A stretch of 64,000 nt of DNA, taken from positions 62,001-126,000 of the forward strand of contig WBUL01000007.1 in NCBI GenBank assembly GCA_008933735.1, read 5' to 3'. A model generated the notes under the pieces. The model searched no databases and was not told the DNA's origin. It saw nothing but the letters and a program-made list of their open reading frames with translations. Position numbers and translations under genes: made by a program. The stretch comes from Anaerolineae bacterium. GTDB taxonomy: Bacteria > Chloroflexota > Anaerolineae > Aggregatilineales > J027. Of this stretch, positions 1-46,053 are shown in pieces; the stretch's first letter is position 1, and each line of letters starts with the position of its first letter.

Positions 1-768
1 TCACTGGACAATGTCCGCATCCGGCAGGAACCAAATATTCGCAGCCCGCGCATCGGGTTTATCGGTTGGGGCGAACTTGCAGAACTCCTTGCGGTCAGCG
101 CTGATGGCGTCTGGTATCAGGTCGATTACGATGGTGTCATTGGATGGTCAGTTGCCGAACTGTTCGAGGTCGTCGGCAGCGATAACCCGACCATCATCAC
201 GCAGCCCAACAACGTCGTTCTGGACTCACCGCTTTCCGTCCCGCCTGTCGGCAATGCCAGCGGTCTGGTGACTTCCCAAGCCAACGTTCGCATCCGTGCC
301 GAACCCAGCCTGCAAGGGCGACGCATTTCATTCATTGGCTGGGGGGAGCAGGCCGAAATCGTCGGCATCAACGAGGATCGCACCTGGTACCAGATTAACT
401 ATAATGGTATTGTGGGGTGGTCTCTGGCAGAATTCTTCGTGGTTGAAGGGGACATTACGACCGCGCCCGTAACGGTTCAGGTAACCCCTGGTGTCGTAAC
501 AGCGACACCCGTTCCCGGTGCAACCCCCGAAACCGTTACGTCAGTGGATCAGGTGTTTGGTGTTGTACGTTCGCTGGGCAACCTGCGTCTGCGTGATGCC
601 CCTGCCCTGAACGCCCGCCAGATAGGCCGTCTCGGCTGGGGTGACGAAGCCAATCTGCTGGCGGTCAGTGATGACAGGTTCTGGTATCAGATTGAATTTG
701 AGGGCGTGATCGGTTGGGCAATTGCCGATTATTTTGAACTGGTACGCGGCCAGATTCCGCCCCGTTAA
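1..768 (+). CDS. SH3-repeat (SH3b-like) protein, 5' truncated by the window edge
   Basis: Frame 1 is open from base 1 to TAA at 768. Three repeats of 'N(V/L)R(I/L)R..P....R.IG..GWG..A.....WYQI.(F/Y).G(V/I).GW..A.(Y/L)F'. The listed 268-768 ORF is only the 3' part. Confidence 0.85.
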
Positions 769-792
769 CACAAAATTCCACACAAAACATAA

Positions 793-814
793 CAGGGGGA
801 TCTTTATCCCCCTG
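793..814 (+). terminator. Hairpin after the SH3 protein gene (candidate terminator)
   Basis: CAGGGGGAT-cttt-ATCCCCCTG, perfect 9-bp stem, weak T tract. Confidence 0.5.
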
Positions 815-941
815 CTTCATTTGGCTGAATGGCTTAAAAATTTGTGCTTTTCGTACTGTTTTTTTGCAATCTTCGCTCAGATTTGGGAAAATTACCTATC
901 GCCAAAAGAACTTTGGTTACTTAATTAGGAAGGTAGAAGTC

Positions 942-2219
942 GTGAAGAAAAAACTGCTTTACACGCTTATGATTGTGGCGCTGCTGGCTGTAGCGGTCGT
1001 CCCCGGCGTTACCGCTCAGGATGAACTCTCCGGCCAGTTGGAAATCTTCTCCTGGTGGGCAGGCGATGAAGGCCCAGCATTGGAAGCCCTCATTGCGCTC
1101 TACAATGGAAAATATCCGAATGTTGAAGTCATCAACTCGGCAGTAACGGGTGGTTCTGGTGTGAATGCCCGTGCCGTCCTCAAGACCCGTATGCTCGGTG
1201 GCGAACCGCCCAGCACGTTCCAGGTTCATGCTGGTCAGGAACTCACCGGAACGTATGTGGTAGCAGACCGGATGGAAGATATCACCTTCATCTATGAAGA
1301 AGAAGGCTGGCTGGACAAATTCCCGCAGGGTATTCTTGATGCGATGAGCTATGAAGGCGGTATTTACAGCGTACCGGTCAATATCCACCGCTCCAATGTG
1401 ATGTGGTATGTCCCCGCCAAACTCGAAGAATGGGGAATTGAAGCCCCGGCGACCTGGGACGATTTCCTGGCGGTCTGCCCGACCCTTCAGGAAGCAGGCG
1501 TGGTGCCGCTGGTCGTTGGTGAAGCCTGGACTGTCAATCACCTGTGGGAAAGCGTTGCCCTGGCAGTCCTCGGTGCGGACGGCTGGAATGCGCTCTGGAC
1601 AGGTGAACTCGACCCGGCGGGTGAAGAAATGGTTGCCGTATGGAATCGGTTCGGCGAGGTACTGGCCTGCTCCAACATTGACGACGATGCCTCTGGCCTC
1701 TCCTGGCAGCAGGCAACGGACAAGATGATTGCGGGTGATGCAGCCTTCAACATCATGGGCGACTGGGCAGCCGGTTACATGACCACCACCCTGGGTCTGA
1801 CCCCTGGCGAAGGCTACGGCTGGGCTCCCTCCCCGGATACTGGTGGCACCTTCATGTGGCTGTCGGACAGCTTTGGTCTGCCCAAAGATGCCCCCAACCG
1901 TGATGCTACGATTGCCTGGCTGAAACTGCTTGGCTCTGTCGAAGGTCAGGATGCCTTCAACCCCCTCAAGGGTTCCATCCCGGCCCGTATTGACGCCGAC
2001 GTAACCAACGCCGACCTATACAATGCCTACCTGCAATCCGCCGCAGCAGACTGGGGCTCAAATACCCTTGCCTCCAGCCTGGTGCACGGTGCAGCCGCCA
2101 ACGAAAACTTCTCCGGTGAATTCGGCACCATTATGGAAACCTTCCGCGAAGCCGGTGCAGAAGCTGCCGCCGCAGTGATGGCGGAAATCTGCGCTGACTC
2201 CGGTGCGTGCGGTGGTTAA
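942..2219 (+). CDS. Sugar ABC transporter extracellular substrate-binding protein
   Basis: Signal peptide [26 protein letters not shown]; '[31 protein letters not shown]' typical of family 1 solute-binding proteins. GTG start at 942 preceded by AGGAAGG. Confidence 0.93.
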
Positions 2220-2247
2220 TCGCACTGACGCAGGTTAAAAATCTCAC

Positions 2248-2276
2248 AGCCCCGTACTTGTGACGGGGCTTTTTTA
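2248..2276 (+). terminator. Intrinsic terminator or attenuator after the substrate-binding protein gene
   Basis: AGCCCCGT-acttgtg-ACGGGGCT followed by TTTTTT. Confidence 0.85.
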
Positions 2277-2311
2277 TAATTAGCGGACAGCTCGCTGAAA
2301 AGGAGTTTTTT

Positions 2312-3649
2312 ATGCGAAGTCATAATGACCGAATGATTGCCTTCTTCATGCTGCTCCCCTCCATCATCTTGTTAGGGATTTTTGTGTACGGGTTTATTGG
2401 ACTGTCCGTCCAGACCTCACTCACGGACTGGGGCAACAACCAGCAGGAAAAACCTCCGCTTCAAGAAGGCGTTGAGCGCAGCTACATCGGGCTGGAAAAT
2501 TATCAGCGTTTGTTGACCGCCGTGCGCGAATTTCGCTTCCGCAATTCGATGGTGAACACTTTTTTCTTCACCGTGCTTTTCATCGGCGGGTGTGTGGCAG
2601 TAGGATTTGGGCTGGCAACTCTCATCGACCAGAAAATACGATTTGAAGGATTTTTCCGGACTACTTTCCTGCTCCCGATGTCCCTGTCCTTCGTGGTGAC
2701 CGGGACGGTCTGGCGCTGGATGCTGCAACCCAATGGGGGTGTGAATATCCTGCCAGAAAAAATATTCGGGCTGGGCAGGATCAAACAAAGCTGGGTCAAC
2801 AGCGAAACCCTCCTGTGGAAATTCGACTGGCAGGATATTCCCCTGTTTCTCACCTATATCGGGCTGGCGACCCTGGGATTCCTCGCGTTTAACTATCTCA
2901 GCCAGGAAAATGACCGGGTCGGGGTCATCTCCAAAGTCATCATTCACCTGTTTGTGGTGTGGCTGCTCGCGCTGATTGTCCTCAGTCTGCTTTTTGGGGG
3001 CGCTTCCTTAAATTGGCTGTGGGCTGCCCTTATTGCGCTGGCATCACTGGCCTATCGCTACTACCAGTCGGACGGGCATGTGCTGGATATGCAGGACAAA
3101 GCTGAACGAAGCTGGCGACCTGTGCAGTATTTTGCCATCGCGGCGGTCATTGTTGCGGGGGTCTATATCGCCGGACTGTGGGACAAGATCTTCCTGCCGC
3201 TGGCGACCCCTGCCGCCGAGCAGCCCAAAGGGTACAATGCGGCGCTTTCCGGGGTGATTCTCGCCGCTATCTGGCAGATGTCCGGCTACACGATGGCGAT
3301 GTTCCTGGCAGGCATACGCGGCATTCCGGAAGAACTACGCGAAGCCGCCCGCGTGGACGGCGCATCGGAACTGGAAGTGTACACCAGTATCATTATTCCC
3401 CTGCTGCGCCCCATCACATTGAGCGCCATGATCATCCTGGGGCACATTTCGTTGAAAATCTTTGACCTTGTGTTTGCGATGGCTGGGCCAGACAACGGGA
3501 ATACGATGGTACCCGGTATCCTGGTTTATACCGCCTTCCGTTCAAATCGGTTTGCAATCGCATCAGCGGTTGCGGTGATCATGCTGGTGCTGGTCGCGCT
3601 CGTGATCATCCCCTACCTGTATACATCTTTGCGTGAGGAGAAAAAGTAA
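2312..3649 (+). CDS. Sugar ABC transporter permease (MalF-like, with a long internal hydrophobic insertion)
   Basis: EAA motif 'EELREAARVDGASELEVYTSIIIPLLRPI'; 445 aa; operonic position. Confidence 0.9.
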   Translation: MRSHNDRMIAFFMLLPSIILLGIFVYGFIGLSVQTSLTDWGNNQQEKPPLQEGVERSYIGLENYQRLLTAVREFRFRNSMVNTFFFTVLFIGGCVAVGFGLATLIDQKIRFEGFFRTTFLLPMSLSFVVTGTVWRWMLQPNGGVNILPEKIFGLGRIKQSWVNSETLLWKFDWQDIPLFLTYIGLATLGFLAFNYLSQENDRVGVISKVIIHLFVVWLLALIVLSLLFGGASLNWLWAALIALASLAYRYYQSDGHVLDMQDKAERSWRPVQYFAIAAVIVAGVYIAGLWDKIFLPLATPAAEQPKGYNAALSGVILAAIWQMSGYTMAMFLAGIRGIPEELREAARVDGASELEVYTSIIIPLLRPITLSAMIILGHISLKIFDLVFAMAGPDNGNTMVPGILVYTAFRSNRFAIASAVAVIMLVLVALVIIPYLYTSLREEKK

Positions 3650-3651
3650 CC

Positions 3652-4488
3652 ATGCCAGCCGCCAATTACCCTCATCTACTTCGACGCGGGGTCGTTTATG
3701 GCCTGCTGATTCTGTGTTTGCTGATTTACCTGCTGCCCATTTACATGATTCTGGTCACTGCTCTCAAATCGCCGGATGCGGTGAACCTGAACACCGCCTG
3801 GGATTTGCCCAAAAGCATCTACTGGCAGAGTTTCGAGGAAGTTTACAACGAATTCGGGAATCGCATCCGTAACAGCTTGATACTGGTTACGCTTGCCACT
3901 GTTTTCTCCGCCCTAATGGGATCGCTGAACGGCTATGTGTTGTCCAAGTGGCGAATTCCGGGTGAGAAGATTCTGTTCCCCCTCATGCTGTTTGGCATGT
4001 TCATTCCCTATCAGGCGATTTTGATCCCGCTGTTTGACTTTCTACGCCGGGTTGATTTGTACGGCGGGCTGCCAGGGCTGATTCTCATCCATGTTGTTTA
4101 CGGGCTGCCGATAACCACGCTGATCTTTCGTAACTTCTACGTTGAAATCCCTGACGAGATGTTAGAAGCAGGTATGATGGATGGGGCGAATTTCTTTGAC
4201 TTATACGCCCGTATCGTCTTTCCGCTCTCGATACCAGGGTTTGTGGTAGTCATCATCTGGCAGGTGACACAAATCTGGAACGAATTTCTGTTTGCGGTCA
4301 TGCTCACCAGTGGTACCAAAGCCGAACCGATCACTGTCGGTCTGGCACAGCTTGCAGGGGGCGAAGCCGTCAAATGGAATCAAACGATGGCGGGTGCTCT
4401 GGTTGCAGCCCTGCCGCCCCTGCTCGTCTATATTTTCGCGGGTCGCTATTTTATTCGCGGTCTGCTGGCGGGGTCGGTCAAGGGGTAA
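3652..4488 (+). CDS. Sugar ABC transporter permease (MalG-like)
   Basis: EAA motif 'PDEMLEAGMMDGANFFDLYARIVFPLSIPG'; 278 aa, immediately downstream of the first permease. Confidence 0.92.
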   Translation: MPAANYPHLLRRGVVYGLLILCLLIYLLPIYMILVTALKSPDAVNLNTAWDLPKSIYWQSFEEVYNEFGNRIRNSLILVTLATVFSALMGSLNGYVLSKWRIPGEKILFPLMLFGMFIPYQAILIPLFDFLRRVDLYGGLPGLILIHVVYGLPITTLIFRNFYVEIPDEMLEAGMMDGANFFDLYARIVFPLSIPGFVVVIIWQVTQIWNEFLFAVMLTSGTKAEPITVGLAQLAGGEAVKWNQTMAGALVAALPPLLVYIFAGRYFIRGLLAGSVKG

Positions 4489-27511: not shown

Positions 27512-27637
27512 CTTATTTTTTCCCTCACTCGTTACGGTAACATCATCCCTATGATACGGGTTTCAGCCCTCAATTTCAAACCTTTTGCCCACGCTGGCAA
27601 TATATAGGGTGTGAGTGCTCATGTTTTGGAGGTTGGT

Positions 27638-28180
27638 GTGGATGAACTTGAGGCAATTCACCGATTGAAGCGCGGGGACATCAGTGGGCTCGCCCTGCTT
27701 GTCCGGCGCTACCAGGTACAGGCCGTCCGAACCGCTTATCTGATCACCCAGGAACGCGACCTGGCAGAAGATGTGGTGCAGACAGCCTTCATCCAGGTGT
27801 ATCGGCAAATTGACGGGTTTGACACAAAAAGACCCTTTGCGCCCTGGTTTATGCGGAGTGTGGTGAATGCGGCTGTACAGGCTGCCCGAAAACAGCACAG
27901 ACAGATTTCCCTGGACAGCAGCCCTTTTGAGGATGGGCTGCCCGACCCCGCCCCCAGCCCGGAATCGGCAGTGGAATCAGCGGAATTGGAGCAGGTTGTA
28001 TGGCAGGCATTACAAAAGCTGTCACCGGAACAGCGTGCCGCCGTTGTGCTGCGATACTATCTGGGCTTCAGCGAAAGCGAAATGTCCGATGAGTTGGACT
28101 GTGCGCCCGGTACGGTCAAATGGCGTTTGCACAGTGCCCGCAAACAGCTTCGCATCCTGTTAGGGACGCAGGAGGAATAG
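27638..28180 (+). CDS. RNA polymerase sigma-70 factor, ECF subfamily
   Basis: 'RYQVQAVRTAYLITQERDLAEDVVQTAFIQVYRQIDGFD', 'LQKLSPEQRAAVVLRYYLGFSESEMSDELDCAPGTVKWRLHSARKQLR'. GGAGG then GTG at 27638. Confidence 0.95.
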   Translation: MDELEAIHRLKRGDISGLALLVRRYQVQAVRTAYLITQERDLAEDVVQTAFIQVYRQIDGFDTKRPFAPWFMRSVVNAAVQAARKQHRQISLDSSPFEDGLPDPAPSPESAVESAELEQVVWQALQKLSPEQRAAVVLRYYLGFSESEMSDELDCAPGTVKWRLHSARKQLRILLGTQEE

Positions 28181-28183
28181 TTC

Positions 28184-29458
28184 ATGAACAACAAACATCT
28201 GACCGACATTTTGAAATCACTGACTGAAAAGGAGATACCAGACGACATGGACTTATGGCCTGTCATTCAAGAACAGTTACAGCATCCACCGCGCCGCAGG
28301 ATGCGTCGTTTCCAGCGGCTTATCGTGGTCGCAGCCGTCCTCGGAACACTGCTCATCAGCGCTGCTGCCTACGGGTTTTACCAACAGCAGACTGGCCCGG
28401 ATGACCCAGGATTGGATGAGGTCAAGCACAGCAACCTGATCACCCCGCTCGGTTTGAGTCAGACGATCAATGGGTTTACGGTCACGCTCGATTGGGCCTA
28501 TGCCGACGCCCACCGCATCGCCATTGCCTATACCCTGGGAAGTGAAGCGAGCACGGATATGTACGGCATTTTCACGATGGAGCACCTGACAGATGACCAG
28601 GGAAACCTCTTCCCCAGCACGTTTGGAGGTGTAGTGTCAGACAACAATCTGCAAAAAGCCAATGCCAATTTCGATGCCAGTTCCCTCAGCGGCGCACCGG
28701 ACAGTTTAAATCTGACCCTGACTGTTGACATTCAGCGGCAGACCAATCTGCCTCCTCTCCCTACCCCAGACCCGAATGTAACCCCTGATGGCTCAGGGGG
28801 TGGATTCGGAGGGGGAGGCGGCGGCAGTGGTGAAGGGTTTGTTCCCTATATCCCTGAGGACGCTTCTTCTTTCCAGGTAGGGAATATCCCGATGGGAGAA
28901 GCCGTAGAGTTCGAGACTCAGGCAACGCTGAGCTTTGAGTTCACCATCCCATTCATTCCGGCAGTCGTCGTGGAACCAGGAGAAACCATCACGACCCATG
29001 ATCTGGCGGTGACGCTCGAAAAAATCGCTGTCGCACCCTCCATGACCAAAGCCGTAGTTTGCCACCCTCTGCCCGACGAGCAGTCCTGGTCACCATTTGT
29101 GCGCCTCAATACAGGCAGTATTCAGCTTGAAGCTGCCGCCAGCACACCCCTTGGAGGCGGGTGTTGGGAAATGACTTTTCTTGCACCCTATGACCGCCAG
29201 CCTGCGACCTGGACATTCACGGTAGAACGACTGCAAACACCGCCTGTTTTCACCGCTGACCAGCTAGAAGCCGCCTTCGCCGAATACGGCGTGACCGTTG
29301 AGGTACAGGGCGAAGGCTCACAGGGCGGCTATAATTTTAGTGGTTCTTCGCAGACTATTCCCGAAGGCATCGACATTAACCAGCTCTGGCGGCAGGTTGA
29401 AGACCGTTTCCGTCAGATCACCAGCGGCCCCTGGGAATTTACCATCGAAATTCCGTAA
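28184..29458 (+). CDS. Membrane protein with DUF4179-like domain, putative anti-sigma partner
   Basis: Follows the ECF gene by 3 nt; 'IPDDMDLWPVIQEQL', one TM, Gly-rich linker GSGGGFGGGGGGSG. Confidence 0.7.
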   Translation: MNNKHLTDILKSLTEKEIPDDMDLWPVIQEQLQHPPRRRMRRFQRLIVVAAVLGTLLISAAAYGFYQQQTGPDDPGLDEVKHSNLITPLGLSQTINGFTVTLDWAYADAHRIAIAYTLGSEASTDMYGIFTMEHLTDDQGNLFPSTFGGVVSDNNLQKANANFDASSLSGAPDSLNLTLTVDIQRQTNLPPLPTPDPNVTPDGSGGGFGGGGGGSGEGFVPYIPEDASSFQVGNIPMGEAVEFETQATLSFEFTIPFIPAVVVEPGETITTHDLAVTLEKIAVAPSMTKAVVCHPLPDEQSWSPFVRLNTGSIQLEAAASTPLGGGCWEMTFLAPYDRQPATWTFTVERLQTPPVFTADQLEAAFAEYGVTVEVQGEGSQGGYNFSGSSQTIPEGIDINQLWRQVEDRFRQITSGPWEFTIEIP

Positions 29459-29466
29459 TGTTTCTC

Positions 29467-29497
29467 AAGCCCCTCTCATCGTTGAGGGGCTTTTTTT
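29467..29497 (+). terminator. Intrinsic terminator of the sigma/anti-sigma unit
   Basis: AAGCCCCTC-tcatcgtt-GAGGGGCTT plus T run. Confidence 0.92.
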
Positions 29498-29499
29498 CT

Positions 29500-30159
29500 T
29501 TACTGCCGCAGCCGGTAATACTCTGCGCTGCCAAAGCCGTGCCAGCGCGGAGTCCCTAGCGGCACCACCGGGTCTTCGTTCTCTTTGGGCGGCTGGCGCA
29601 TTTCAATCGCTCGAATCGGCATATCCGGGGTGATGCGGAACGAGCCGTCCGGCTGCACAGCATTTACCAGAATCCCACCTTCCTGCCAGTAGACGTAGGC
29701 TTCCGTTACCACGCGGCGGGGGCCCCGTCCGCCGAGGGTGCTGGCCGATGAAGCGAGGAATGCATACTGCGGCTCGCCATATACCAGGATCGCATCGCCC
29801 AGACGAAGCTGCCGCGTTGGGGTAACGTTCAGACGAAATCCTGCCAGAATCTGCCCGCCATAATTCCATGTCCGCCCGCTAAACATCCATGCTCCGTCCC
29901 GATTCGCCAGTGCCAGCCGCTCCTCAAAAATGAGAATCGCTTCTTCACCAGGACGAACACCATACCAGCACGGTAGTACACAATCGCCGGGGTCAAGATA
30001 ATTCGGTGGAATCGGTGTCAGCGCCCCCATGAAGCGGGCGCTGTAGACTGCGCTCAGGCTGCATCCATACGCGGCGATAAATCCCATCAAAATCAGCACA
30101 AAACCACGCATTATTTCTCTCCAAACGGCTGCGCGGCTGTATACACACAGCCCTGCCAC
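29500..30159 (-). CDS. C-x-x-P-C-W family protein, copy 1
   Basis: N-terminal TM; 'LDPGDCVLPCWYGVRPGEEAI'; 'LGDAILVYGEPQYAFL'. The true start may be the internal MRGFVLILMGF. Confidence 0.75.
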   Translation of the reverse strand: MAGLCVYSRAAVWREIMRGFVLILMGFIAAYGCSLSAVYSARFMGALTPIPPNYLDPGDCVLPCWYGVRPGEEAILIFEERLALANRDGAWMFSGRTWNYGGQILAGFRLNVTPTRQLRLGDAILVYGEPQYAFLASSASTLGGRGPRRVVTEAYVYWQEGGILVNAVQPDGSFRITPDMPIRAIEMRQPPKENEDPVVPLGTPRWHGFGSAEYYRLRQ

Positions 30160-30686
30160 GCCACCGCATTAAAAGGCCGCGCGAAGTTTCCGTAGCGAAT
30201 CGACTCAATGGGTGATTCCACACTCAAACGTTTCGTGACAGGCACAAACAGGGTGATTTGTTCCTCTTCATAATAGAGTTGCAGCACTTTTTCCGTCCCA
30301 ACCTGACGCGCATCAATTGAAAATTGCAGGGTCTGATAATCTGGCTCGCCCAACGCCAGCAAAAAATCACCCAACCGAATTCCTGATGGCCGGATGAACA
30401 AATCACCGTTCTCTGGATGAAGCAAAATGATATGCTCATGCGCCATCAGCCAGGTATTTTTTGCGATTTCCTGGACACCTGAAAGCTGGCTGACCGCGCC
30501 ATGAACCTCCATGATGCTGGATTTTCCAGGACGAATCCCTGACCAGCAGGGTGAAACACAGCCCTCATCTGGCAGCACTGCCGCTAGGTAACTTGCCATG
30601 TACTCGTCCGCCCTATCACGCTGCACGAGCCATCCGGCAAAAACCGCCCCCCAGATGACCATCAGCCACAGTAAAAAACGCAACAC
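30111..30686 (-). CDS. C-x-x-P-C-W family protein, copy 2
   Basis: N-terminal TM; 'LPDEGCVSPCWSGIRPGKSSI'; 'LGDFLLALGEPDYQTLQF'. Confidence 0.78.
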   Translation of the reverse strand: MLRFLLWLMVIWGAVFAGWLVQRDRADEYMASYLAAVLPDEGCVSPCWSGIRPGKSSIMEVHGAVSQLSGVQEIAKNTWLMAHEHIILLHPENGDLFIRPSGIRLGDFLLALGEPDYQTLQFSIDARQVGTEKVLQLYYEEEQITLFVPVTKRLSVESPIESIRYGNFARPFNAVAWQGCVYTAAQPFGEK

Positions 30687-30718
30687 TCAGGGTTCTCCAG
30701 TAAAAAAGCGTCGGGCTG

Positions 30719-31291
30719 TCACCGCCCATAGAGAGACAGCCAGGTAAAACCCTGCCACATGGCACAGGTCTTGGGGGTGCTGGGATGATAATACATAAAA
30801 CGAACCGGGGTGGCAGGATGCAGGCGAGCCCCGTGAAGGATGGGATCAGTGAAAATCTCCAGCCGATCCTCTTCGTAGAAAAAAATCAGGCGGGTTTCGA
30901 CCCCGGTTGCCAGCCGCACACAGTCAGGATTACCCAACCTTGCAAACAACTCTCCCAAAGTCACCTGTCCGGATATATCGAGCATCACCTGTGTGACGAT
31001 CCGTGAACGGGTGCTGATAATCACGTAGGAGGTATAAAACCGCTGTCCATCCGGGGAAAACTCCTTGCTGCCAGCCCCGTCACGGGCATTTGGGAGGGTG
31101 CTCAACAGGGTATGTACATGCTCATCCTTCGTATTAACCTGAATCCCATACCAGCAGGGGGCCAGACAGGAGTCATCCGGCAGCAAAATCTGTATGTCCC
31201 GCGGAGCAGATGTCTTTGTCATCAGCGCTGCGCCACACAAGAAAAGCACCATGATAAACAGGCCTACCGTCAGCACCCCAAAGCGTACCAT
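30719..31291 (-). CDS. C-x-x-P-C-W family protein, copy 3
   Basis: N-terminal TM; 'LPDDSCLAPCWYGIQVNTKDE'; 'LGELFARLGNPDCVRLAT'. Confidence 0.78.
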   Translation of the reverse strand: MVRFGVLTVGLFIMVLFLCGAALMTKTSAPRDIQILLPDDSCLAPCWYGIQVNTKDEHVHTLLSTLPNARDGAGSKEFSPDGQRFYTSYVIISTRSRIVTQVMLDISGQVTLGELFARLGNPDCVRLATGVETRLIFFYEEDRLEIFTDPILHGARLHPATPVRFMYYHPSTPKTCAMWQGFTWLSLYGR

Positions 31292-31897
31292 TTATTCCAC
31301 CACCGGCGGATACTTCGCCAGCCAGATCGCACCCAGCCACTCCCATGAATAAAAAGGCTGTGCATAATAATTGTCAGGATATTCAAACGCGGCAAGCGGC
31401 ATTTCTACAGATACACGCCCCTGTGATGATACCGACACCAGCACAATCACCTGCTGTTTTTCATAGTACAGGGAAATCAGTTTTTCTTTTGCGCCCGTGT
31501 TCAAATTCACAGCGGCCTGCTGCGTCTGATAATCGGGTTCTCCCATCGCTGCCAGAATATCGCCCAGCCGGACATGCGGTGCCAGCAGGGTTAAACTGCT
31601 CAGAAACCAGGCAATGTATACCTCATCTTCATAGGTAAACCTCCAGGCGTAGTCCTGAATCGGCTGCGCGTCAGGAAGCTGGTTCAAGATCACGGTTCCT
31701 TCTTCTTTGGATGTCACAACAGAACGAATCCCTCGCCAGCACGGAGCAGTACAGGTGTCATCCGGCAGCAAAACAGCAACCGCAGGCGGTGTTCCAGCCC
31801 GTAAACCGGCTTCCCTTGCTGTCATCACCCCTGCACCAACCATCCCGACCAGCACCATCAGCCAGATTACTCCTCTAATTGGAACATCGCTCCCCAC
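31292..31897 (-). CDS. C-x-x-P-C-W family protein, copy 4
   Basis: N-terminal TM; 'LPDDTCTAPCWRGIRSVVTSK'; 'LGDILAAMGEPDYQTQQA'. Confidence 0.78.
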   Translation of the reverse strand: MGSDVPIRGVIWLMVLVGMVGAGVMTAREAGLRAGTPPAVAVLLPDDTCTAPCWRGIRSVVTSKEEGTVILNQLPDAQPIQDYAWRFTYEDEVYIAWFLSSLTLLAPHVRLGDILAAMGEPDYQTQQAAVNLNTGAKEKLISLYYEKQQVIVLVSVSSQGRVSVEMPLAAFEYPDNYYAQPFYSWEWLGAIWLAKYPPVVE

Positions 31898-33054
31898 ACA
31901 TTATCAAACACCAGCGTTTTGTCATTCACCCGAATGCGTGTGAGAAAATCCAGCCAGACCTGGTCATAAGTATCATCGGCGGCTTCATAGCGCACCCACA
32001 GCAGTCCTCCGTTAAACGGCAGTTCAGCGACGATTAACGCTCCAGAACTTTCCTCCGTTTCGATCTTCCCTGCCGCCGCCAGCAGCGTGTCCCAGGAAAA
32101 CAACACGGTCTTGCTGATTTCCTCCTGCTGATTCAGCAAATCCAGGACACTCACGTAATTCGCTGGCAGCAGCGAGACACGCATGGAAATCGTCGCCGAT
32201 CCATCTGGTGTCTGTGCGGTGACCACCAGTACATCCTCGTCTTCCAGAACAACCCAATCTGGTGGCGCGGAGGTCGTAATACCATTTTGAATGAATCGCA
32301 GCCCCATCGGTTCGCCCACTTCAACCGGATCAAAGGTCAGCGCCCCGGCAGGCAGCGTAGTCCCTGCCTCAAATCGCTCCACCAAGCTGTCCGCAGGTTC
32401 AAAGCTGACTAACAGTTGGGCAATGTTCTCCTCAAATTCGAGCGGCTGCTCGTTCAGTTTGAGGGTTCCCAGCAGCATATTTCCCATCGCCAGCAAGTCA
32501 ATCCAGTTTTCCGCTGGGGCTTCAAAAAGAATGATGGCAAGTTCATCCCCTTCTACCAAGGTCGCAAACGACAGCGACAGCACATGCTCATATTGTTCAA
32601 AACGAGGATTCGTATTTTGTTCGATATACAGCATCAACGCCGCTCGCTGGCTGCCATCCCGCAGTGCGACCGGGTCGGCGTAAGCGCCTTCCTGTTTCAA
32701 GCCCCTGAAGGAGGCATATTTTTCGTAATAGTCCAGTGCCGGATTCAGCGCTTCGGTATCAAACTGGATTTCCAACTGGTCAGCGGGACGCAGAATCATT
32801 TGTATCTGAATGGGTGTTTCACCCGGCTGTAATTCAGAAATATTTGTCATGATGCCGTATGGGGTGGGTGACTCCGTCACAGACTGCTCCCAGCCTTCTG
32901 GCACCCCCAGGCTAAATTCAGTGCTGCCGCTGCGAAGGATCATTTCGCCCGCGATGGGAGGAATCTCCATTTGGGCCAGCACAGCCGAGGGCAAAAGCCA
33001 GAGGACAATGAACAGGGCAGCCACCCTATAGCCTTTTCTGAAAGGATCATTCAT
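31867..33054 (-). CDS. Secreted protein of unknown function, tandem paralog A
   Basis: Signal peptide; 'STEFSLGVPEGWEQSV'; 395 aa; overlaps the downstream gene. Confidence 0.75.
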   Translation of the reverse strand: MNDPFRKGYRVAALFIVLWLLPSAVLAQMEIPPIAGEMILRSGSTEFSLGVPEGWEQSVTESPTPYGIMTNISELQPGETPIQIQMILRPADQLEIQFDTEALNPALDYYEKYASFRGLKQEGAYADPVALRDGSQRAALMLYIEQNTNPRFEQYEHVLSLSFATLVEGDELAIILFEAPAENWIDLLAMGNMLLGTLKLNEQPLEFEENIAQLLVSFEPADSLVERFEAGTTLPAGALTFDPVEVGEPMGLRFIQNGITTSAPPDWVVLEDEDVLVVTAQTPDGSATISMRVSLLPANYVSVLDLLNQQEEISKTVLFSWDTLLAAAGKIETEESSGALIVAELPFNGGLLWVRYEAADDTYDQVWLDFLTRIRVNDKTLVFDNVWGAMFQLEE

Positions 33055-33067
33055 ACTCTAATTCTCC

Positions 33068-34354
33068 TTATGGCATAACAATCTGCTCTAATGCTTGCAG
33101 CAGAGGCTCGACAGGCAGCACGCTGCCATTCACCACCGTTGAACTCAGAACCGTTTGCCAGAGCGCCAGCGCAGAAGCCCATTCATTCTGGGGGGCGTAC
33201 AGCGTGACCATGAGCAAACCGCCCTCTATTTCAACGAGAATCACCTGCTGAAGCGTTCCCCCAGAATGAGCCGCATATTCCGCTGGATACCGTACTCCTA
33301 CGACTCGTGCGGGCGCACTGCCCCATGCAAAATCGACCCATGTGCCTACATTGATTTGCTCATAAGTATTGGTCTGCAAAAATGTGCTGTAAGCAGCAAC
33401 AGGGTCGGACGGCAGGTCAGCCTGCTGAAGCTGTGTCAGAATCCGTGCTTCGGAAATCAAACTCACCTGAATCAATGAACCACGCAAAGGCTCACCTTCT
33501 TCGATACCGCGCCAATCGTCTTCATAAAAGAATGTGGTCGGGAAATCGGGGTTGTCGGTCATATTGCGGCGAAACCAGTTCGGCGGTGCGGCAATTCGCA
33601 CCTCGGCCCCGCCGCTTATTTTCAGAGCCGCCACGACCGGTCCGGTCAGGCTGTAAGGGTCACTCACTCGGTTTAAAGCAACACGTGGCCCTGCCGGGTC
33701 AAGCGACTCACCGTTCACGGTCAGGCTGGCTCGAACAGCGGCAAACTGGTCTAAAACCATGGGGCGCGGCGGTTCCTGGGGCAGCAGCGTCGTTTCAAAC
33801 TGCATCAGCAGCAGTGCCTCTAATTCGATTTCCACCCCGATCCATTGAACATAGCGGCTGAGCGGGTCATCCTGGTGATACACCACAAACAGCGCTGCCG
33901 GGTAAGCGTCCCAGCGGAAGCGGTAAACCTCACTCATCAGTGCCGGGTCGTAGTCTTCCGTATAGGGCAGGATCGCTTTCAGCCCTTCCATGAGCGCCCC
34001 AATGCGGTCATCTTCCGGCAAATTTCCATACAAAAACGCGGCGGGTTCATCAAGGCGTGCCCGCACCTTCTGAAAATCCGCGCCGCCCACATAGGCTGAC
34101 ACAGCCGACTGCGCTTCGGCCTGGCGCGGGGAAAGGGGAACCTGAATTGTCCAGGTATCCGGCACCACAAAAGCGACAGTCAGGTTATCTTTTGAGACGG
34201 TAAGAGATTCTTGCATGGCCGCTGCACGAGCCGTCAGGTTGAACCCGCTCATCAGAACTGCAAGACATATCATGATAAGGACAAATCGCGGCATTTGAAG
34301 TCTCATACGTTCATTCACCATACGAATCTTAGGCGGATTGCTGATGTTAATCAA
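33068..34354 (-). CDS. Secreted protein of unknown function, tandem paralog B
   Basis: Signal peptide; 'NLTVAFVVPDTWTIQVPL', 'GGAEVRIAAPPNWF'. Start uncertain among several ATGs. Confidence 0.72.
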   Translation of the reverse strand: MINISNPPKIRMVNERMRLQMPRFVLIMICLAVLMSGFNLTARAAAMQESLTVSKDNLTVAFVVPDTWTIQVPLSPRQAEAQSAVSAYVGGADFQKVRARLDEPAAFLYGNLPEDDRIGALMEGLKAILPYTEDYDPALMSEVYRFRWDAYPAALFVVYHQDDPLSRYVQWIGVEIELEALLLMQFETTLLPQEPPRPMVLDQFAAVRASLTVNGESLDPAGPRVALNRVSDPYSLTGPVVAALKISGGAEVRIAAPPNWFRRNMTDNPDFPTTFFYEDDWRGIEEGEPLRGSLIQVSLISEARILTQLQQADLPSDPVAAYSTFLQTNTYEQINVGTWVDFAWGSAPARVVGVRYPAEYAAHSGGTLQQVILVEIEGGLLMVTLYAPQNEWASALALWQTVLSSTVVNGSVLPVEPLLQALEQIVMP

Positions 34355-43494: not shown

Positions 43495-46053
43495 CTATTT
43501 GGTACGCGAAGCACGCGGCATGATCATGCTGATCACTTCGTAGTTGAGTGTATTCAGGAAATCGGCGGCGTCTTCTGCCGTGATTTTTTCTTCGCCCTGT
43601 TCGCCAATTAACACGACTTCATCGCCCACCCGGACATCATCAATATCCGTTACATCCACCGTGCACTGGTAAATATCCACATTGCCAATCAGTGGCGCTC
43701 GTTTGCCTTTGACCAGCACATACGTCCAGGGCAGCGGCCCTACCCGAAAACCGCTGGAATAACCGACAGGCAGCACCGCCACCGTGCGTGTTGTGTCCGA
43801 GGCGACCAGTCCGATTAAATTAGTAGACACACGCTTTAACTGCACAATTGTGGTTTTCCAGGACAGCGCGGTTTTGAAATCCGGTGGGAGTTCGTAACGC
43901 CCCGGATACAGGCCATACAGTGCTGCGCCACAGCGCACCATGTTAAATCGCGCTTCCGGGATATGCAGCGCGGGGCCGGACGCTGCTGCATGAACATACT
44001 GGAACTGCGCGTTAATGGTTTTGAGCATGTTAATGGTTTCATCAAATTCGTTTAACTGGCGGATGGCATCCTGCCGTTCTATGGTGGAGGCGATATGCGT
44101 GTAAATGCCTTCCAGATGAATCCGGTCAAGCTTATGCAGCCCTCGGACAAACTGCGGTACTTCATCACGCATCAAGCCCATGCTGCTTCTGCTCACATCA
44201 ATGCGGATGTGGGCTTTGATGGTGCGGTCCAGTTCGGCGGCGGCCTGGTTGAAGGCTTTTGCCGTGTTCAGATCATAAATGGAAATGGTCAGATCGTGCC
44301 GCACCACCTGACGTGCCGCATAGGGAACCGTGTATCCCATAATCAGAATCGGCTTAGTGATACCCGCCCGCCGCAGTTGGAGTGCTTCGTCAATCGAGGT
44401 CAAACCAAGATAATCCGCCCCGTTTAAACCGGCAGTGGTACTGACGGGAATCGCGCCGTGCCCGTAGGCATCGGTTTTCACAACCGCCATCAGGGTACAC
44501 TGCGCCCCGATAATTTCTTTGATCCGTTTAACGTTGTGGGCGACCGCAGCCGTATCGACATGCACCCAGGTCGGGCTCATCGGGCGGGTTGTCCAGTCCG
44601 AATCAAGCGCAGTGTCCTGACGCGGCAGCACCATCACATCTTCAGGATTATTCAGCAGCGCGGCGACGACACGCTCCATCCGTGCTGACCGGTTGCCCTT
44701 GACCAACACAAGGTCTTTCGGCCCTAAACGGTTGCGAATAGCGGTGGCAGCATCCTGCGCGGAAAATGTGATGTGCGTACTGGTGAGGGGGAACCCCTTG
44801 TCCAACGCGGCCCGGACTGCATTCGCTGCATCGTCCCCTTCGGAAACTACTTCCGTCGCCACTTCTGCCAGGCTGGCGCCAATTTCCAGGTAGCTCTGCG
44901 GGCGGCGTTCACTCGTATCGGCAATATCGCCCAGCACCACAAAGATTTTCCCTCGTGGGCTGACCAATCCCATTTGAGTTTCTTTAATGGATGGCTGGGG
45001 ACGCAGTGCTTTGAGCCATTCCAGCACCAGCAGCATATCATCCGGCGTGGTGTCGTAGGTATCGTCAATGAGCTGGCACCGGTTTACCCCTACCAGAGGG
45101 CGCATTCTTCCGGGAAGAGGTTCCAACTGGGTCAGGGCATTCAGGCTGTTTTCCAGCGGCACTTCAAAGGACAACCCCACGCACAGCGCCGACAGCACCG
45201 CGTATAAATTGTGTGCTCCCAGCAGCCGCACCCATTTAGCGATAAAACGCTGGTTGCCATAACGCAAATCGAATCCGGTTTTATCCAGCGCCTGGATAAT
45301 ATTATAGGCGGTCAGGTCTGCCCCAAAGGATGTCCCTTGTTTATCAACGCTGATCGTTAATTTGGGAACACGACATTGAATCTCTCGCACCAGGGCATCA
45401 TCGTAATTCAGCACAGCGAGGCCATCCTGCGGCAAATTTTCGATGAGGACTCGTTCTTCCGGGATAGCAGTTTTGCTGGCTTTCGTCGGGTTGATATTGG
45501 TCACTACACCGACCGTTGAGGGAGCAGCGGTAATCATTTCCGCCATTTCCCCCGCTTGGGTACTGTCATACTCCAGAACAGCAATTTCATGCTGTTTGGT
45601 CAACTGCCCCAGCGCTAACGGGAGCGCGAACCGCCCCGGAATATTTACCCGTCCGGTATACACCTGATAACGAAGCCGCAGCACCTGACTGATAGCTTCT
45701 TTGGTCGTGGATTTGCCATAACTACCCGCTACTGTGACGACAGTCGTGCCAAACTTGCTTAGCACATAATTTGTCCAGCGCATCAGAGCCGCCTCAACAT
45801 CATGCATGATGATGACGGTGATACCCTGCGTATCAAAAGTGGGGGGATGTTTGCACATGAGGCCGGTTGCACCTGCCCTCACGGCGTCCTCCATGAAGTG
45901 GTGTCCATCACCACGCTCTGTCTTGAGCGCAACAAACAAATCGCCAGACTTCACCTGACGGGATTCAAAGCAAAATCCGTTAAAAATCTGGGCTACTGGC
46001 TCACCAAAAAGCTGACCATCCGCCGCATCCAGAATATCGTAAAGATTAATCAT
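43495..46053 (-). CDS. Bifunctional MurF (Mur ligase) / alanine racemase fusion
   Basis: N-terminal 'VVTVAGSYGKSTTKEAISQVL' Mur ligase; C-terminal 'WVHVDTAAVAHNVKRIKEIIG...LMAVVKTDAYGHGAIPV' PLP-dependent Alr. Confidence 0.93.
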   Translation of the reverse strand: MINLYDILDAADGQLFGEPVAQIFNGFCFESRQVKSGDLFVALKTERGDGHHFMEDAVRAGATGLMCKHPPTFDTQGITVIIMHDVEAALMRWTNYVLSKFGTTVVTVAGSYGKSTTKEAISQVLRLRYQVYTGRVNIPGRFALPLALGQLTKQHEIAVLEYDSTQAGEMAEMITAAPSTVGVVTNINPTKASKTAIPEERVLIENLPQDGLAVLNYDDALVREIQCRVPKLTISVDKQGTSFGADLTAYNIIQALDKTGFDLRYGNQRFIAKWVRLLGAHNLYAVLSALCVGLSFEVPLENSLNALTQLEPLPGRMRPLVGVNRCQLIDDTYDTTPDDMLLVLEWLKALRPQPSIKETQMGLVSPRGKIFVVLGDIADTSERRPQSYLEIGASLAEVATEVVSEGDDAANAVRAALDKGFPLTSTHITFSAQDAATAIRNRLGPKDLVLVKGNRSARMERVVAALLNNPEDVMVLPRQDTALDSDWTTRPMSPTWVHVDTAAVAHNVKRIKEIIGAQCTLMAVVKTDAYGHGAIPVSTTAGLNGADYLGLTSIDEALQLRRAGITKPILIMGYTVPYAARQVVRHDLTISIYDLNTAKAFNQAAAELDRTIKAHIRIDVSRSSMGLMRDEVPQFVRGLHKLDRIHLEGIYTHIASTIERQDAIRQLNEFDETINMLKTINAQFQYVHAAASGPALHIPEARFNMVRCGAALYGLYPGRYELPPDFKTALSWKTTIVQLKRVSTNLIGLVASDTTRTVAVLPVGYSSGFRVGPLPWTYVLVKGKRAPLIGNVDIYQCTVDVTDIDDVRVGDEVVLIGEQGEEKITAEDAADFLNTLNYEVISMIMPRASRTK

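Follow-up and report, generated by a model that had tools for sequence, protein, structure and literature searches.

Sco-type copper proteins are membrane-anchored, extracytoplasmic proteins with a CxxxC motif. The small proteins described here resemble them in the C-x3-C spacing of two cysteines, in the membrane anchor and in their extracytoplasmic place, but they have no predicted thioredoxin fold, and their family has no conserved His column to supply the His ligand that a Sco-type site requires. A second group that invites comparison are the DsbA-like proteins of the Thioredoxin_4 family (PF13462), which share the compartment and the thiol chemistry and are fused in cis to the array-type domain in some relatives. 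The proteins of the array differ in that they possess neither a thioredoxin domain nor a CxxC motif, and with C-x3-C, no Pfam match and no fold match they were not counted as members of the DsbA/thioredoxin-like group. The third is the BLIP-like superfamily (BLIP, PF07467; SmpA_OmlA/BamE, PF04355; DUF3862, PF12978), whose members have been described as putative inhibitors (PMC2954215). Its proteins are likewise small and exported, are built of tandem or single units of a helix and four strands, and show a GxTxxxV...GxP-like signature, whereas an invariant C-x-x-P-C-W staple and a C-terminal W-x-G are peculiar to the array family.

The window, a stretch of 64,000 nucleotides from an Anaerolineae bacterium (contig WBUL01000007.1, positions 62,001 to 126,000), contains four adjacent open reading frames of this kind on the minus strand between 29500 and 31897 (Table 1). 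All four carry the motifs C-x-x-P-C-W-x-G and L-G-D/E...G-x-P. The preliminary description had given the first motif as D-x-x-C-x-x-P-C-W-x-G; the part from the first cysteine onwards is present in every copy, but the leading Asp is not a family feature. In the protein encoded at 31292-31897 the CTAPCW pair comprises the only two cysteines. The true start of 29500-30159 is probably the ATG at 30111, which would give a protein of 203 aa and an overlap with the stop of the upstream gene.

Table 1. Features of the array and its flanks in the window
Feature	Position	Strand	Length	Remarks
Type-A copy	31292..31897	-	201 aa	TM helix 7-34; CTAPCW at 49-54; LGDILAAMGEPDY
Type-A copy	30719..31291	-	190 aa	CLAPCW; LGELFARLGNPDC
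Type-A copy	30111..30686	-	191 aa	CVSPCW; LGDFLLALGEPDY
Type-B copy	29500..30159	-	219 aa as listed	CVLPCW; LGDAILVYGEPQY; C-terminal WHGFG
Secreted protein, family unknown	31867..33054	-	395 aa	upstream, co-directional; 31-nt overlap with first array gene
Secreted protein, family unknown	33068..34354	-	428 aa	upstream, co-directional; 13 nt ahead of next gene
Terminator-like stem-loop with T-run	29467..29492	+		between convergent anti-sigma gene and array; consensus scan only

Together with 31867-33054 and 33068-34354 the array forms a co-directional run of six genes whose members overlap or lie 0 to 32 nt apart. The nearer of the two upstream genes is probably on one transcript with the array, and possibly both are co-transcribed with it. 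The two encoded proteins (approximately 400 aa, no family match) each show a 'VP[ED]xW' segment near the start. Upstream of the run lies a divergent MurJ gene. Downstream, beyond the terminator-like hairpin and convergent with the array, are genes for an ECF sigma factor and a probable DUF4179-type anti-sigma protein (27611-29458). Elsewhere in the window, 43495-46053 encodes an 852-aa protein in which a Mur ligase (N-terminal part) is fused to an alanine racemase (C-terminal part).

Pairwise identity among the four proteins is 21-37%, and they can be aligned over most of their length. With one copy as query the other three were retrieved from the genome with E values of 3e-31, 2e-11 and 3e-8. 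At the level of protein sequence the kinship of the four copies is thus well beyond chance, and the initial view of four consecutive same-strand genes with two shared motifs as one family was borne out. At the DNA level resemblance is left only in the motif regions (blocks of 51-53 nt, 71-76%), which indicates that the duplications are old. Another family of the order possesses pairs of such genes. In a maximum-likelihood tree, which has long deep branches and several weak inner forks, 30111, 30719 and 31292 formed a group with the leading genes of these pairs (support 94/90). The trailing genes joined 29500, in a group (99/98) that also takes in single orthologues from the window's own family. 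The array therefore comprises three type-A genes and one of type B. Because the order A then B is common to both families, the A-B pair should be older than their split. On this tree and gene order the array descends from an old A-B pair of which the A gene is here present in three copies, in agreement with the earlier impression that it is old and diversified. In several genomes of the window's family (L211-L215) the type-B orthologue is found near genes for a glycogen-debranching enzyme, a CBM48 protein, a LysM lipoprotein and MurJ.

No credible family match was obtained when the four copies were compared with Pfam, NCBIfam (curated cut-offs), PHROG, PADLOC and PDB sequences, which agrees with the preliminary statement that no named family has this signature. 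The PADLOC models of anti-phage defence gave only a chance-level match (E 0.055). Sets of 31 and 67 relatives likewise had no credible match in family libraries, and no description of the family was found in the open-licence literature. Profile searching, which the preliminary description had proposed together with a count of copies per genome, recovered no Pfam family and a large family in Chloroflexota. Profiles retrieved relatives by the hundred: iterated, they found them in 8 of the 10 genomes of the window's family and in 90 of the 101 genomes of its order, where one genome can have as many as 24 copies. In a phylum-wide sample at least 15 of 300 genomes had relatives, a figure that is a lower bound as few candidates were scored per genome. 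A search for related loci seeded with A1 returned no relatives, and a motif pattern scan of genome contigs was used in its place; over 84,980 species the motif scan gave at least 119 loci. Among the matches listed, profile E values below 1e-6 occurred only in Chloroflexota records, with the exception of one titled 'Pleurocapsa minor' (L109, JAHHHY010000001.1), a record title that looks wrong. The other motif matches listed from outside the phylum had no significant profile score, appeared to be due to chance and were rejected as members; eight motif matches on viral contigs included none that was convincing.

Tandem arrays of two to at least six copies recur elsewhere (L086, L095, L143, L219, L304). 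L143, a contig of 4.4 kb, carries at least six consecutive copies (127-3955), in several of which PCF replaces PCW. The array in the window, which had first been taken as the notable unit, is real but not a local peculiarity: it is one instance of a phylum-wide family. Judged by these searches, the family is large, old, restricted to Chloroflexota and has no entry in the libraries searched.

The signature of the family is C-x-x-P-C-[WF]-x-G-[IL]-x-P-G-x-[ST]...G-x-P...W-x-G. In 227 sequences made non-redundant at 70% each of the two cysteines was kept in 214 of 215 cases, and in the 146 of them that had not been gathered by motif (median pairwise identity 20%) in 135 of 136. Other strong columns are the Pro of C-x-x-P-C, the Gly-x-Pro, a Trp near the C-terminus and a Gly. 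There is no conserved column of His, Met, Lys or Arg (maxima: His 11%, Met 28%, Lys/Arg 25%), and the best Asp/Glu column, a single helix position, reaches 74%. This pattern does not look like that of a catalytic centre or of a metal-binding site, and an enzyme or metal site is unlikely. It might be thought that the two cysteines are ligands of a metal or cofactor, as in the CxxxC copper proteins, since the C-x3-C spacing with Pro and Trp on the extracytoplasmic side would suit such a role. However, they are not accompanied by a conserved ligand of any other kind, His and Met included, and the fusion partners of the family are thiol oxidases, so that a metal- or cofactor-binding protein is very improbable. 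The preliminary description had left the choice between a disulfide and a metal or cofactor site. The cysteines are indeed the key feature, and a disulfide is favoured because the cysteines are nearly invariant whereas conservation extends to no third residue of a ligand type, and because relatives are fused to DsbA-like domains.

These fusions occur among relatives in family f2 of the order, where the array-type domain follows either one Thioredoxin_4/DsbA-like domain (L266, L274, L277) or two (L088, L127, L136, L184, L305, L307); the assignment rests on a Pfam match for three of the fusions and on motifs for the rest. In the fused DsbA-like domains both CxxC and the cis-Pro TP motif are intact. 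In a further relative (L020, 946-2673) the array-type domain is joined to a WD40/TolB-like propeller at the N-terminus. In f2 there is also a conserved block consisting of genes for an M23 peptidase, a secreted 720-aa protein, a lipoprotein member of the family and an S1 protein, followed by convergent VKOR and MoeA genes. The lipoprotein member is thus one gene away from VKOR. The 14 loci with a VKOR neighbour show one inherited, convergent gene order on the gene maps and were weighed as a single arrangement.

The fusions, in which the CxxC is intact, and the recurrent proximity to VKOR raise the possibility that C-x-x-P-C acts as a redox-active dithiol in disulfide exchange with DsbA or VKOR partners, which would make the family a thiol relay or regulator outside the cytoplasm. 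The conservation of the cysteines, which exceeds that of every core residue except the proline of G-x-P, speaks for such a role: it goes beyond what a staple of purely structural role would require and counts against a view of the pair as a staple only. We nevertheless regard a relay as unlikely. The VKOR gene in f2 is on the opposite strand with the S1 gene in between, within what is a single inherited order; a search of the neighbours of non-fused members turned up no DsbA-like gene; and the C-x3-C spacing is not the usual CxxC. The genome of the window does encode a thioredoxin-VKOR fusion and has three Thioredoxin_4 loci, but its VKOR is on another contig, not near the array. A related and quite unlikely reading is that of an unnamed thiol module, possibly with a new fold, which would exchange disulfides with VKOR/DsbA and whose paralogues would make up a redox or quality-control layer of the envelope that is expanded and specific to Chloroflexota. 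Since VKOR and DsbA-like proteins are present in the genome, oxidation of the cysteine pair in the envelope is plausible.

Structure prediction and comparison by AlphaFold and Foldseek had also been proposed at the outset. AlphaFold2 models were obtained for the protein encoded at 31292-31897 with 67 sequences (pLDDT 85.0, pTM 0.75) and for the mature domain of the relative L135 (pLDDT 95.3, pTM 0.90). Both consist of a helix, four strands, a helix and four strands, that is, of two alpha-beta4 repeats. For neither model did Foldseek find anything in the PDB at E <= 0.001, and BLIP, OmlA and BamE were absent from the top 50. One viral match had a probability of 0.98 at E 0.039, to a phage 'immunity protein' that itself has a weak DUF3862 match.

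A BLIP/BamE-type tandem had been guessed from the sequence ahead of folding, and the later tests were mixed. The proteins would then be tandem BLIP/BamE(SmpA_OmlA)/DUF3862-type domain proteins that act as periplasmic inhibitors of a partner enzyme. Each half has part of a G-x-[ST]-x-x-x-[EQ]-V...L/Y-G-x-P pattern, the models show the element order alpha-beta4 twice over and the viral match points the same way. In hhalign comparisons with the BamE profile the best register placed motif 2 on GMTxxQV...LGxP, as expected, in three of five profiles (A6, A5 and the C-terminal half), and for two of these three, column-shuffled controls scored lower. The E values of 0.02-0.07 were, however, not significant, even the model with pLDDT 95 had no PDB match, and a profile comparison of the two halves of the domain gave no match between them. 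BamE was found in none of 41 genomes of the class, while control genomes were positive. A BLIP/BamE-like relation is therefore a weak lead only, an inhibitor of this type is unlikely, and filing the family as BLIP-like was not adopted because significant PDB-fold, sequence and profile matches were all lacking.

Each array protein has one N-terminal membrane segment. Among 195 members that could be scored, 126 had both a lipobox and a hydrophobic segment, and in 65 the hydrophobic segment stood alone. The four copies in the window belong with the latter, having a hydrophobic anchor but no clear lipobox, and the distribution of charges around their TM segments gave no decisive topology signal. 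Their location on the outer face, as first proposed for the cysteines, is supported by the lipoprotein relatives and by the disulfide argument itself, and we infer that they are small, membrane-anchored, extracytoplasmic proteins. We give an even chance to the view that they are disulfide-stapled binding or scaffold domains. After export the two cysteines would be oxidised to a short-range disulfide which would staple the loop that leads into repeat 1. Rather than working as an enzyme, the domain would then bind partners or provide a scaffold in the cell envelope, and duplication with divergence of the surface would fit paralogues directed to different partners.

Although roughly nine in every ten genomes of an order encode the family, single genomes have as many as 24 paralogues and its structure is predicted with confidence, none of the curated libraries searched contains it. 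A name would give hundreds of hypothetical proteins an annotation, and the fusions to DsbA-like domains offer a concrete starting point for work on disulfide chemistry in the envelope of Chloroflexota, which has been little studied.
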